Shown here: positions 1 to 11,951 of the stretch, in pieces
How positions within the stretch are numbered: position 1 is the stretch's first letter
Layout: every line of letters begins with the position of its first letter
Source of the DNA: Armatimonadota bacterium
GTDB lineage: Bacteria > Armatimonadota > Fimbriimonadia > Fimbriimonadales > Fimbriimonadaceae
Reading direction: 5' to 3'
Assembly: GCA_017303935.1 (NCBI GenBank)
Contig: JAFLBD010000002.1
Location: forward strand, 186,001-250,000
Length of the DNA stretch: 64,000 nt
The notes under the pieces: model-generated
Seen by the model: only the letters and a program-made list of their open reading frames with translations
Told to the model about the DNA's origin: nothing
Databases searched by the model: none
Position numbers and translations under genes: made by a program

Positions 1-1587
1 ATCGCTGGGCTCCAAGAAAACAAAGCCGATCTGTTGGATGGTGAGTCCGCCTTTCGGCTGTATGACACCTACGGATTCCCGCTTGAGGTCACTCAAGAAC
101 TTTGCGAAGAGTCCGGAATTTCGGTGGACGTCGACGGCTACGAATCGGCGATGGCCGAAGCCCAAGAGCGGAGCCGATCCGCGGGAGGGATGGACACCGT
201 TTACGGCGGCAGCGAAGAAGGATTCCTGGTGCTCATTCAGCAAGAAGCTCCCTCCAAAACCGAATTTATCGGATACGATTTTGCTGAGGCACCTGCTCGA
301 GTAGTCGCAGCGATTCCTGAAGTCGACGACGAAGGAATGACGACTGGCCGGATCGGCATTGCGCTGGATCGGACACCTTTCTATGCTGAATCTGGCGGAC
401 AGGTCAGCGACGAAGGGATCATCGAGGGAGCTGGATTTAGGCTGAAAGTGCTCGATTTGGTGAAGCAAGATGGTGTTTTTGTTCACCTCGCCGAGACCCT
501 ATCGACCAGCCATCCGGAAGAGTTCAAAGGTCTTCCTGTCAAGGATCTCCAAGACATTTTGAATCGACAAATCTTTGACCAAATGGTTAAAGCAACTGTC
601 GACCTCGACCGCCGCGCAGATATCACACGCAACCATACAGCAACACACTTGCTGCATGCGGCGCTGCGGAAAACGCTTGGAAAGCACGTGACTCAGGCAG
701 GATCTCTGGTTTCGCCGGAGCACCTTCGATTCGACTTCACTCACGGAAAGGCGATGACTACTGAAGAGATCGCGACCGTCGAGCAACTCGTTAACGAAGA
801 AATTCTTCTCGGACACTTTGTGACCATCCACACCGGCGTTCCTATTCAGGAAGCGAAGGCGATGGGTGCAATGGCACTTTTCGGCGAAAAGTACGGCGAA
901 TTCGTTCGGGTTGTCGAGATTCGATCGCATGCCGGTGAGCCAGTGAGCGTCGAACTTTGCGGCGGATGCCACGTCGGCAGCACGGGACAAATCGGATTCT
1001 TCAAGATCCTTCACGAAAGTTCGGCTGCTTCCGGCGTTCGACGCATTGAGGCGGTCACTGGAAAAGGTGCTATTGCTTGGGCGAACCATCAGCACGAAAC
1101 CGTTCGGCAAGTCGCTGAAGTACTCAAATCGACGCCTTCTGACGTGGTTCGCGCCGCGGAAAAGAACGTTGAGCTCCTCAAAGAAGAGCGAAAGAAGCGC
1201 GAAAAGTTGCTTCAATCAGGCGGAGGAGGAGCCGATGCGCAATCGCACAAGGTCGGCGATGTCGAGCTGGTCATTCAGATTTTGGAGGATGTTGCGCCCA
1301 AAGAAGCGCAGACGGTCGCCGACAAAATCGCAAGCGATGCTCCAAACAGAGCTGCATTGCTCGCGGTCAAGGGCGAGGGCAAGCTGACGTTTATTGCAAA
1401 AATCAGCAAAGACGCTCAGGCAAAGGGTGCCCATGCTGGCAACCTCGTCAAAGCACTGGCAAGCTTGACCGGTGGCGGTGGCGGCGGCGGACCAGAGTTC
1501 GCAACAGCCGGTGGACGCAACGTCGATGCGCTATCTGCTGCGCTGGCGCAAGCACCGGAAATCCTCAAAGGTCAAGTCGGAGCCTAA
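1..1587 (+). CDS. alaS: Alanyl-tRNA synthetase, C-terminal part (5' end outside window)
   Basis: Charges tRNA-Ala in the cytoplasm and hydrolyses mischarged Ser- and Gly-tRNA. The reading frame is open from base 1, so the catalytic N-terminus lies upstream. The fragment (528 codons) begins inside the aminoacylation half, with the family's AF.LYDTYGFP stretch near fragment residues 17-27. The editing domain follows, with its metal ligands: HTATH near residue 212 and CGGCH near residue 320. Residues after about 390 form the DHHA1/C-Ala region, ending in a glycine-rich G7-PEFATAGG segment typical of AlaRS. The stop overlaps the stop of the convergent downstream gene by 4 nt. One copy of the dispersed palindrome lies inside it at 575. 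Identity is secure. Confidence 0.97.
   Translation: MAGLQENKADLLDGESAFRLYDTYGFPLEVTQELCEESGISVDVDGYESAMAEAQERSRSAGGMDTVYGGSEEGFLVLIQQEAPSKTEFIGYDFAEAPARVVAAIPEVDDEGMTTGRIGIALDRTPFYAESGGQVSDEGIIEGAGFRLKVLDLVKQDGVFVHLAETLSTSHPEEFKGLPVKDLQDILNRQIFDQMVKATVDLDRRADITRNHTATHLLHAALRKTLGKHVTQAGSLVSPEHLRFDFTHGKAMTTEEIATVEQLVNEEILLGHFVTIHTGVPIQEAKAMGAMALFGEKYGEFVRVVEIRSHAGEPVSVELCGGCHVGSTGQIGFFKILHESSAASGVRRIEAVTGKGAIAWANHQHETVRQVAEVLKSTPSDVVRAAEKNVELLKEERKKREKLLQSGGGGADAQSHKVGDVELVIQILEDVAPKEAQTVADKIASDAPNRAALLAVKGEGKLTFIAKISKDAQAKGAHAGNLVKALASLTGGGGGGGPEFATAGGRNVDALSAALAQAPEILKGQVGA
575..590. repeat. Dispersed palindrome TTAACCA-N2-TGGTTAA, copy 1
   Basis: Arms match 13 of 14 (TTGACCA-AA-TGGTTAA). 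It lies inside alaS and is read as D-Q-M-V-K (frame A). Confidence 0.7.
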
Positions 1588-2996: not shown

Positions 2997-3907
2997 AACG
3001 GTTCGGTGTATTCAAAGGTAGCCGCTTCGGTATCAACTCGGGCGCGTAAGCCCATCGGCAAAGAAAGCATCGTCGACATGTGCCCAAATGGGAACATTAC
3101 AGAACTAGGGACGCCCGACCGCACCAAAATATCGCCGACAATATCTTTCCAAGGTTTCGAACCGATGCTTTCATCTGCTCGCTCGTCAGTCCGAGTCATT
3201 TCTCCGACGACCACGGCGGCAGCACTTTGGAGCTTGCCTGCATTGAAAAGGTGGGTCATCATCGCGTCAACTCGATGAGGGTTCTCATCAACGTCCTCGA
3301 TCAACAGGATTTTGCCTTCGGTTTGAATCTCTTCCTTTGTGCCGATCGAATCGCAGATCAGACAAAGGCATCCGCCCACGGTATCCCCTTCAGCAACGCC
3401 AGGAACGACCGTTTCCATCTTCGTCGCTGATTTCGGAATTCTGGCATCACCGGACAAGACGTTGAAGAACGATTCGTGCACCCAAGGTGCGCGGTCAAAT
3501 GCCAATGTGAGAACCATTGGAGCCTGAATCGTGACTGCGCCACGACGTTGTAGCGCCATATGAAGCGTCGTGATGTCGCTGAATCCCAAGAACATTTTGC
3601 GGCTTTGTGCCATGAAATCGAGATCGAGGTAAGGAAACAGCCTTGCGCATCCATAGCCACCGCGTGAGCAATAGACAGCGTCCACTTCTGGATCGTGGAA
3701 CGCGGCCATCAGGTCGTCGGCTCGATGCCGATCCGATCCCGCAAGATAGAACTCGGAATCTAGGGCATGCGGCATCAACTTTGTTTTGTAGCCGTAAGCG
3801 TGCATCAGCGCGCGGCCCTTTTCCATTTTGTCCGGCGCGATCGGCGACGACGGCGAAACAATGCCCAAAGTAGAGCCTGGTGGCACGGCGCGTGGCTTAA
3901 TTTTCAT
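2984..3907 (-). CDS. ldcA: LD-carboxypeptidase (peptidase S66, muramoyltetrapeptide carboxypeptidase)
   Basis: Removes the terminal D-Ala from tetrapeptide stems during murein recycling (family knowledge). Length (307 aa) is typical. The N-terminal P-P-G-S-T-L-G-I-V-S-P-S-S-P, the Y-C-S-R-G-G-Y-G loop and the nucleophile loop G-F-S-D-I-T near residue 110 are all present. The Glu and His of the S66 triad fit L-L-I-E-D-V-D-E-N near residue 205 and F-G-H-M-S-T near residue 276. No signal peptide, so cytoplasmic. First gene of a two-gene leftward unit with the downstream glycosidase-family gene; divergent from the metallophosphoesterase. It could act on other peptides, such as microcin-like ones. 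Confidence 0.9.
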   Translation of the reverse strand: MKIKPRAVPPGSTLGIVSPSSPIAPDKMEKGRALMHAYGYKTKLMPHALDSEFYLAGSDRHRADDLMAAFHDPEVDAVYCSRGGYGCARLFPYLDLDFMAQSRKMFLGFSDITTLHMALQRRGAVTIQAPMVLTLAFDRAPWVHESFFNVLSGDARIPKSATKMETVVPGVAEGDTVGGCLCLICDSIGTKEEIQTEGKILLIEDVDENPHRVDAMMTHLFNAGKLQSAAAVVVGEMTRTDERADESIGSKPWKDIVGDILVRSGVPSSVMFPFGHMSTMLSLPMGLRARVDTEAATFEYTEPLCDD

Positions 3908-3947
3908 AGAGATTAGGCCCTATTTTATCCGCAGGTGTGACTCTGCT

Positions 3948-3977
3948 TTGCGGTTACACCATGGCGTGACCTACAAT
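3948..3977 (+). promoter_or_regulatory. Predicted promoter, TTGCGG-N18-TACAAT, leaderless
   Basis: TACAAT (3972-3977) ends 6 nt before the GTG start at 3984, and a weak -35 (TTGCGG, 3948-3953) lies 18 nt upstream. Transcription would begin at or next to the start codon. Confidence 0.5.
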
Positions 3978-3983
3978 AGTAAT

Positions 3984-4793
3984 GTGAACTTCAAATCTGG
4001 ATTGGCGCTTGTTGCGGGAGTTTCGGCGGGACTCTTTGGCTATGGCATGCTCGTCGAGGCCAATCGACTGGTGGTTGTTCACAAGTCGATCAAGTTGCCG
4101 CGGTGGCCCTCCAGGTTGAACGGGTTCAAAATTGCGGTGCTCGGCGACTTTCACCTTCGTGATGAGTACAGCAGTGCGCTGGCCAAGCGCGCCGTCGACG
4201 CCGTTCTCGATGAGCAGCCCGATATGGTAGCTCTGGTCGGCGACATCATCGATTACTGGAAACCCGAGGTCATCCCGATGATCGGCGATGTCTTGGAGGA
4301 TTTACTTCTTTTGCAAGGAGCGGTTGTGGCCATTCCTGGTAATCACGAATACCGTTGCGGCAACCCAGATTTGATGGAATCGATCCTCAATGAACTGAAC
4401 ATCAAGTATCTTCGGAATTCGAGCTGGGATCACGCCGGAATCCAGTGGGTTGGCGTCGATTCAGCAAACGCTGGTCAATCTGACCCAATCACAGCCTTTG
4501 AGAAGATTAATCCTGACGAGCCGTGTATCACTCTTTGGCACGAGCCCGATATGGTGGAATGGCTCCCGGCGCGCACAGACTTGATGCTGAGTGGTCACAG
4601 CCACGGCGGGCAGTTTTTGACTCCATGGGGCAAGCCATTCACCGGGAGTCGAAATGGTCGAAGGTACTTGCGCGGTTTTTACGATCTCGATCCAAATCCG
4701 CTCTATGTCACTAGCGGCGTAGGAACCACCGGCCCGCCATCCAGGCTTTTCTGCCCACCCGAAGTGGTGATATTGACCCTAAGATCGGCCTAA
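3984..4793 (+). CDS. Membrane-anchored calcineurin-type metallophosphoesterase
   Basis: A Ser/Thr phosphatase-fold hydrolase of the YkuE/YaeI type. I chose the GTG at 3984 because a longer upstream frame would overlap the divergent ldcA gene and the hydrophobic anchor begins directly after this GTG. Metal-binding motifs appear in order: G-D-F-H near residue 52, V-G-D-I-I-D near 80, P-G-N-H-E near 117, and G-H-S-H-G-G near residue 208. The first 25 residues are hydrophobic with no clear cleavage site, suggesting an N-terminal anchor. YkuE-like enzymes bind Mn/Zn at the envelope; the substrate is unknown. tRNA-Arg follows 29 nt downstream. Confidence 0.88.
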   Translation: MNFKSGLALVAGVSAGLFGYGMLVEANRLVVVHKSIKLPRWPSRLNGFKIAVLGDFHLRDEYSSALAKRAVDAVLDEQPDMVALVGDIIDYWKPEVIPMIGDVLEDLLLLQGAVVAIPGNHEYRCGNPDLMESILNELNIKYLRNSSWDHAGIQWVGVDSANAGQSDPITAFEKINPDEPCITLWHEPDMVEWLPARTDLMLSGHSHGGQFLTPWGKPFTGSRNGRRYLRGFYDLDPNPLYVTSGVGTTGPPSRLFCPPEVVILTLRSA

Positions 4794-10656: not shown

Positions 10657-11274
10657 TCAAGGAGCAGGATCGTATTTCTTTGGCCTAATGGCGACAACGT
10701 TACCCTCAACATCAAGTACACGCTTTGGCATCAAACATTGTGCCAACAATTCAGGCTGAATTTTTCTGCGGGAAGTAGTTTCTGAGAGGATTTCCCTTGA
10801 GTGCGTTCGATTTGGAGTTGCGACAGTTATCACTTCAACCGATGTTTTTGCCCTAACCATTCTAACTGCGGGAGCCAAATCAGAGTCAGTCGTCACCAAA
10901 TATGCTATGTCAATCAGCCCGCACATTGAATCTGAAAGAAGGTGAATAGCAAGATTGACATCGGACTCCTTTTCTTCATGGCCTTTCCACTTTGCTTGGC
11001 ATTTTTTGCACTTCAGCCCCTTCTCCTTGAATGCGCCAAGCACAACTTCAACACCTCTTGCTCTTGAAGCATTGATGAATTCTTGGTGGCGCTTTAGCGG
11101 GTCAGGCAGCCATGTGGGCAACGCAGTAAATAACTTGACGTGCTCCAAATTATGTCCATGCAATAGAACCCTGGACGCAATTTCCCGATAGCACACCCAC
11201 TTTAAGTTCGGAGCCTTCAATTCGTCAATCGCATGGTACAGGTTAAACCCGTCAATATAGAACCCGGCTCTCAT
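10657..11274 (-). CDS. NYN-domain (LabA/DUF88, PIN-like) putative ribonuclease
   Basis: 205 aa. NYN domains are PIN-fold Mg-dependent RNases. Acidic residues expected at the metal site are visible: Y-I-D-G-F-N near residue 8, E-S-D-V-N-L-A near 108, and T-T-D-S-D-L near residue 130. A K-C-K-K-C pair (about residue 95) could be a half zinc site. I start at ATG 11274, because a longer frame (11322) would translate through a hairpin with a T-run that ends right before this ATG. There is no Shine-Dalgarno. The gene stands alone, next to an approximately 550-bp non-coding stretch. RNA target unknown. Confidence 0.8.
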   Translation of the reverse strand: MRAGFYIDGFNLYHAIDELKAPNLKWVCYREIASRVLLHGHNLEHVKLFTALPTWLPDPLKRHQEFINASRARGVEVVLGAFKEKGLKCKKCQAKWKGHEEKESDVNLAIHLLSDSMCGLIDIAYLVTTDSDLAPAVRMVRAKTSVEVITVATPNRTHSREILSETTSRRKIQPELLAQCLMPKRVLDVEGNVVAIRPKKYDPAP

Positions 11275-11311
11275 AAAAAGAAAAACCCCAGGCGCATATG
11301 TCCTGGGGGGC
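11275..11311 (-). terminator. Intrinsic terminator-like hairpin immediately before the NYN gene
   Basis: Read on the minus strand, a 7-bp stem CCCCAGG/CCTGGGG with a 9-nt loop is followed by TTTTTCTTTTT, and the ATG of the NYN gene follows at once. It looks like a textbook rho-independent terminator, placed so that it would either end an RNA from the upstream non-coding region or attenuate the NYN gene. Confidence 0.6.
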
Positions 11312-11640
11312 CTTCGAACCACCCCTTTCGAGATGCAATCCTCCGGCGGAGATAATATATTATACGTACAAAGGCCTATTAGTCATATAGGTAAGGAAAT
11401 CAGATAAGACAAAACTGTCCTATATCAAGTAAAAATACTAGCTAACTTAGTCTACTATTTAAGGACATACCCTAACCTACGACCGCAACGGGGCAACGCT
11501 GGTTCTTTCCGTACTTCAACTCGACTGCTCCAAGCGGAGTAGATTCCATCTTCATTTCACCGCGAGTTCAGTCGTTAAAGGCTACCCATGTAACATTCTT
11601 GTGTTACTTTCAAAAGGCTGTGCTTCGCCGCTTAGTTAAA
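11312..11640 (-). other. Non-coding stretch with dyads; possible minus-strand small RNA or leader
   Basis: No convincing ORF in this roughly 330-bp segment, which is more A+T-rich than its surroundings. On the minus strand it contains TATAAT (in gtacgTATAATata, about 11361-11366) without a good -35. It also has a CGACTG...CAGTCG pair enclosing a small CTCC-gctt-GGAG hairpin (about 11520-11575) and a GTAACA...TGTTAC dyad (11591-11608). A strong terminator lies at its downstream edge. I compared it by eye with tmRNA, 6S, SRP and RNase P signatures and found none. Confidence 0.35.
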
Positions 11641-11821
11641 CGCTCGGGCAATTGCGTCAACCCTGTCATCGTATATTTGATTCGGAAATCCCGCGAACTC
11701 CGCTTACCAATCGACAAGCTATCGTAAATCCAATATGGATACATATCAAGCGATGAAGCATGGGATTTCAGCGTCAGAGAATGGCCGAAAAGGAGCAAAT
11801 CTCTTAGGTTCAAATTGAACC
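11641..11821. other. Gene-poor spacer before tRNA-Thr
   Basis: 180 bp with no supported gene. An open frame here (11610-11930, minus) reads straight through the tRNA and is not credible. Confidence 0.5.
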
Positions 11822-11896
11822 TGGAGCCCAGGAGCAGGATCGAACTGCCGACCTCCTCTTTACCAAAGAGGTGCTCTACCACTGAGCTACCTGGGC
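11822..11896 (-). tRNA. tRNA-Thr (anticodon GGT)
   Basis: 75 nt on the minus strand, CCA encoded. Acceptor stem GCCCAGG/CCTGGGC is fully paired, D-arm TAGCTCAGTGGTAGAGC, anticodon stem CCTCT/AGAGG around TTGGTAA with anticodon GGT, and T-loop TTCGATC. Confidence 0.97.
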
Positions 11897-11951
11897 GCGG
11901 ACACAAAATGATACTCAAATTCCATGCCACCGCGCCACTCCTAGCTACGAA

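Follow-up and report, generated by a model that had tools for sequence, protein, structure and literature searches.

Type III toxin-antitoxin systems, such as ToxIN, CptIN and TenpIN, consist of an RNase gene that is preceded by a promoter, a small RNA and a Rho-independent terminator, and they are spread on mobile elements (PMC5086642). A related theme is provided by AbiF and its non-coding RNA RCd22 (abiF RNA, RF03085), in which a small structured RNA with hairpins lies next to an RNase gene on mobile DNA and was shown to bind and neutralise the protein, a HEPN-type (Cas13-related) nuclease (PMC12373285). Structured RNAs beside a predicted nuclease are also represented by the DUF3800-associated motifs (Rfam DUF3800-I, -IX; PMC11701678; PMC10910872). 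By contrast, HEC-09, a candidate defence protein of the PADLOC library (HEC stands for a candidate embedded in Hma systems), is listed as a protein only, and no RNA partner is described in the sources searched. Likewise, searches of the literature, which did not extend to bioRxiv or most subscription journals and are thus no proof of novelty, returned no paper linking an NYN nuclease to a small-RNA antitoxin.

The locus considered here lies in a 64,000-nt stretch (the window) of an Armatimonadota genome (contig JAFLBD010000002.1). A first-pass annotation had pointed to a 7-bp G+C stem with an 11-nt T-rich tail ending directly at the ATG of a PIN-like RNase gene, preceded by about 330 bp with dyads and a TATAAT but no ORF, and this observation is correct. 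On the minus strand, CCCCAGG (11308-11302), a 9-nt loop and CCTGGGG (11292-11286) are followed by TTTTTCTTTTT (11285-11275) and by the ATG at 11274-11272. A scan of both strands for a perfect 7-bp stem with at least 6 G/C, a loop of 3-12 nt and at least 8 T in the next 11 nt finds this site alone in the 64 kb, and none in 20 first-order Markov simulations; a standard terminator scanner misses it, because it allows loops up to 8 nt only. The local fold is modestly better than shuffled sequences (44 nt: z -1.87; 131 nt: z -1.26). About 80 nt upstream of the start codon lies a putative -10 box, TATAAT (11364-11359), with a weak putative -35 box, ATGACT (11386-11381), at a 16-nt spacing, giving 10 of 12 consensus matches. 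The region 11275-11821 has no convincing gene: the ORF listed at 11610-11930 overlaps tRNA-Thr and hits no Pfam family, and Rfam searches, riboswitch and leader families included, find only the tRNA, with no other family in the region even at E 10. The dyads further upstream are not better than chance as a fold (367 nt: z -0.93), and no conserved structure was found upstream of the promoter (11387-11640). The useful unit is about 78 nt (11352-11275) rather than the whole 330-366 bp.

The gene downstream (10657-11274, minus strand) encodes a 205-aa protein with an NYN domain (Pfam E 3.8e-11); GTG 11322 is an alternative start in the same frame. No Shine-Dalgarno sequence is visible before the ATG, because the T-run occupies that place. 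The protein matches PADLOC HEC-09 over residues 4-200 (E 2.6e-42) and PHROG 7929, as do all 25 family members aligned, the protein of the window included, and D8, D105, D130 and D132 are invariant in 25 homologues. The AlphaFold2 model (pLDDT 96.2) has its best structural matches in 2qip (Z 17.7) and the NYN domain of the RNase MARF1 (Z 16.4-16.5). Fold and conserved acidic residues thus point to a predicted nuclease, whose activity is inferred from sequence and model alone.

The gene is found in only 3 of 61 genomes of the same genus, family and order (absent from 58), and in 28 of 291 genomes of the phylum, which speaks for horizontal spread. In three congeners tRNA-Thr is followed by tRNA-Gly, while in this genome the sequence after tRNA-Thr is unrelated and tRNA-Gly lies elsewhere on the same contig. 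The genes beyond DAHP synthase and tRNA-Thr are about 29 kb apart in two relatives, and the module thus sits at a rearranged junction. The stretch 11387-11821, between tRNA-Thr and the promoter, has no detectable relatives: no homologue was found in related genomes, and blastn found nothing in plasmids and only a 31-nt chance-level match in phages. Directly after tRNA-Thr lies a palindrome, AGGTTCAATTTGAACCT (11806-11822), with a second copy elsewhere in the genome (C1:542259) and one in the genome designated G026. A 13-bp direct copy of the 3' part of tRNA-Thr, AGGAGCAGGATCG, lies at the stop codon end of the NYN gene (10660-10672 and 11830-11842) and could mark an old insertion at the tRNA, or be chance; 4 of 3000 simulated 1.5-kb sequences share a 13-mer with the tRNA region. 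However, the copy lacks the last bases of the tRNA and no integrase is present, so that an island formed by site-specific integration at tRNA-Thr is not claimed.

Comparison with relatives revealed that this NYN family carries a small structured RNA. A search of genome contigs with the single NYN protein found nothing, but a search with the alignment found 528 relatives, of which the best 80 were kept. The DNA before the NYN start showed a repeating layout: a -10 box, a short single strand often ending in CCC, hairpin 1, hairpin 2, a T-run, and the start codon. A script asking for two adjacent hairpins and a T-run on either strand finds this unit in 93 of 141 NYN upstream regions at score 18, against 3 of 230 control genes in the same loci (6 of 230 at any score); near-identical starts were counted once, and loci with under 160 nt upstream were left out. 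With proteins clustered at 60% identity and a slightly different detector, the figures are 64 of 85 clusters against 14 of 247 control genes, and with a -10 box 8-18 nt before hairpin 1, 42 of 85 against 1 of 247. Where the RNA is upstream of and co-directional with NYN, the distance from the -10 box to hairpin 1 is 12-15 nt in most loci with a detected promoter; a minority of promoter calls give other values and are probably wrong picks. In an independent sample, NYN genes found by protein alone in 296 genomes of another phylum (centred on genome G293 and drawn evenly) gave 30 loci, of which 28 had a locatable start. The script finds the tandem unit in 22 of these, and in the other six (loci L295, L306, L310, L311, L313 and L315) two hairpins and, in most, a T-run were read by eye. 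Orientation calls in this sample are partly ambiguous, since hairpins read on both strands (L291, L297 and L309 look otherwise by eye).

The hairpins covary. In the class in which the RNA is upstream of and divergent from NYN (34 sequences, after 14 of 48 automatic picks had been dropped by eye as false or of another sub-type), 94.1% of pairs are standard, 13 of 16 pairs show two-sided changes, and the covariation score is 0.503, against 0.212 in shuffles and at most 0.164 with partners slid. For the co-directional class a single MAFFT frame failed: in one alignment the RNA of the window does not align, and in another the two sub-groups are out of register in hairpin 1, so that RNAalifold sees hairpin 2 only. 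A subset of 14 sequences was therefore used, which scores 0.413 against 0.217 in shuffles and at most 0.183 slid, although one measure, further pair types, is below its shuffles (15 against 17.7). Shuffles do not remove relatedness. No Rfam family was matched at gathering score in 40 NYN loci apart from tRNAs and one RNase P RNA, RF03085 not being matched either.

Importantly, the position of the RNA is not fixed. In the divergent class it runs away from NYN, and in loci L152, L164 and L138 it lies downstream of NYN on the opposite strand. In L152, from a Dehalococcoidia genome, four tandem copies of about 70 nt are spaced by about 105 nt (3644-4027, minus strand), and the DNA between them shows, by eye, TTGACA-like and TATAAT-like boxes before each; the genome of locus L149 has two upstream copies. 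The unit is therefore a transcription unit of its own and not merely a leader. It also appears to be mobile, with 106 plasmid records, among them 3.5-kb E. coli plasmids, and 48 viral-contig loci; the Thermus oshimai plasmid pTHEOS01 is a carrier as well. In small plasmids of E. coli and Klebsiella (L216, L217, L222), NYN lies opposite a helix-turn-helix gene with the hairpin region between them. A Cupriavidus NYN-like protein (L218, 1750-2691) is annotated as having an Xre/MbcA/ParS toxin-binding domain, which may mean that a protein antitoxin replaces the RNA there.

In 27 genomes chosen because they hold NYN loci, all had a match to a covariance model of the RNA (R1) at E 0.01 or better, the strong matches lying nearly all at the NYN locus. 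In the sample of 296 genomes, R1 hits 29 places in 24 genomes; 3 of the places are training loci, and of the other 26 places 14 adjoin NYN sequence and 12 do not. NYN was found in 34 genomes, the RNA in 24 and both in 13, with about 2.8 expected by chance. Of the 14 adjoining NYN genes, 7 are broken (L253, L256, L257 and L258 are split between frames; L254, L260 and L265 retain only an N-terminal fragment), 6 look intact and one (L255) could not be classed, while the RNA still matches; frameshifts in draft genomes can be sequencing errors and may explain some of these cases. The 12 hits without NYN include one beside AbiEii and an MqsA-like protein (L264), one beside a type I restriction subunit (L277), one near a BrnT-like gene (L279) and one (L263, 1303-1374, plus strand) that lies divergently about 60 nt from a DUF3800 gene (416-1240, minus strand), hinting that one RNA type serves two nuclease families. 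L263 gave no DUF3800 family match, even at E 10, and the small-RNA regions of L263 and L132 gave no more than chance-level matches to known RNA families. The NYN-first sample, in turn, shows the RNA at every one of 28 loci if the reading of six by eye is accepted. This asymmetry, RNA without working NYN but not NYN without RNA, is what a toxin and a harmless antidote would leave.

The copy in the window is atypical. The putative small RNA (11275-11352, minus strand; 5' end inferred from the -10 box) shares the layout of its relatives, with the -10 box in the same position relative to hairpin 1 as in homologous loci, and it fits a -10 box, 11-16 nt, hairpin 1, hairpin 2 and T-run beside an NYN gene. 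In the minimum-free-energy fold, hairpin 1 (11310-11347) starts 11 nt after the -10 box and is separated by a 1-nt linker from the terminator-like hairpin 2 (11286-11308). However, hairpin 1 is interrupted (inner stem CAUCUC-GAAA-GGGGUG), and the tandem detector did not call the unit. R1 finds it only weakly, as the best of four hits in a 1.3-kb search (9.2 bits, E 0.041), and not in the whole window with default filters, and a second model, R2, misses it, with its best hits elsewhere. It is counted as a probable member by layout and partner, not by model score.

The resulting hypothesis, which rests on comparison and prediction alone and is held at a probability of roughly 0.55, is that the hairpin is the 3' end of a short, independently transcribed two-hairpin RNA that is the genetic partner of the NYN nuclease gene. 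Linkage to the HEC-09 family in many phyla, structure, independence of orientation and mobility are demonstrated by the comparison, whereas the endoribonuclease activity and toxicity of NYN, binding and inhibition by the RNA, and the trigger are inferred. In this view, the RNA would bind the NYN RNase and hold it inactive as an antidote, and when RNA supply falls, as in infection or plasmid loss, the stable RNase would be freed; the module may serve as phage defence or addiction. In the co-directional layout of the window, most transcription would stop after the RNA and only read-through would make NYN mRNA, keeping the RNA in excess. The locus and the co-directional class resemble type III systems in that the putative antitoxin RNA lies upstream of the putative toxin gene, behind one promoter and separated by an intrinsic terminator, but this does not hold for the divergent and downstream classes of the same family. 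Moreover, the fold is NYN (PIN-like) and not of the ToxN/AbiQ type, the RNA comprises two unlike hairpins in most loci instead of short repeats processed by the toxin (repeated whole units occur only in a few, such as L152), and no pseudoknot has been shown. By its fold and by an RNA not made of short repeats, the module is not a type III member as defined (PMC5086642), though it may work like one. Compared with AbiF, NYN is an unrelated fold, and compared with the DUF3800 motifs, the partner here is NYN.

The interpretation offered by the first-pass annotation, that either a small RNA ends at the hairpin or the RNase is controlled by attenuation, possibly through its own cleavage of the leader, is partly supported: the small RNA is favoured by the comparison, while attenuation cannot be the general function. 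A cis-acting attenuator, perhaps autoregulated by NYN cleavage or binding, would fit a nuclease with an RNA partner, and in the window and the co-directional class the T-run ends 0-45 nt before the NYN start, where the terminator would still limit read-through. Yet the same kind of RNA is divergent from or downstream of NYN in many genomes and sits without NYN in 12 of 26 new places, where it cannot act as a leader, which makes this reading unlikely. An ordinary terminator of the tRNA-Thr transcript or of upstream transcription, with no tie to NYN, is at least as improbable: tRNA-Thr does lie upstream on the same strand, and relatives continue from it into tRNA-Gly whereas here the following sequence is unrelated, but a -10 box lies right before the unit, and tandem hairpins with a T-run and -10 box occur at 1 of 247 control genes but 42 of 85 NYN clusters.

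Somewhat less remote, though still doubtful, is the possibility that the RNA is a working cofactor (guide, scaffold or substrate-presenting RNA) in an active ribonucleoprotein. Strict linkage and covarying structure are as compatible with an activating RNA, and the divergent class has a conserved 5' single strand (AAC-N-C) and loop sequence. However, no variable guide-like stretch is seen in the alignments, and the RNA outlives broken NYN genes, which a pure cofactor has no reason to do. It is about equally doubtful that the family-wide module is real but the copy in the window a decayed remnant, as its interrupted hairpin 1, poor model scores and rearranged junction might suggest, since the promoter-like box, spacing, terminator and an intact NYN frame with all catalytic residues are kept.

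A broader and more tentative reading, which is rather less likely than not, is that of a widespread, undescribed class of RNA-controlled nuclease modules, in which an NYN RNase is held in check by its own two-hairpin RNA acting in trans, in three orientations and sometimes as tandem RNA units, with the same RNA type also serving DUF3800, and in which the RNA alone may spread or persist as an immunity RNA. If the antidote reading is true, type III-like RNA control of toxic nucleases has arisen on a third, unrelated nuclease fold, after ToxN and HEPN/AbiF. The RNA is easy to miss because only the protein is in defence libraries, so that expression tests of HEC-09 without its RNA would be misread; the 3.5-kb E. 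coli plasmids offer a simple test system. If the antidote reading is true, a large set of "NYN domain-containing" genes in bacteria, plasmids and prophages also gains a partner and a testable function.
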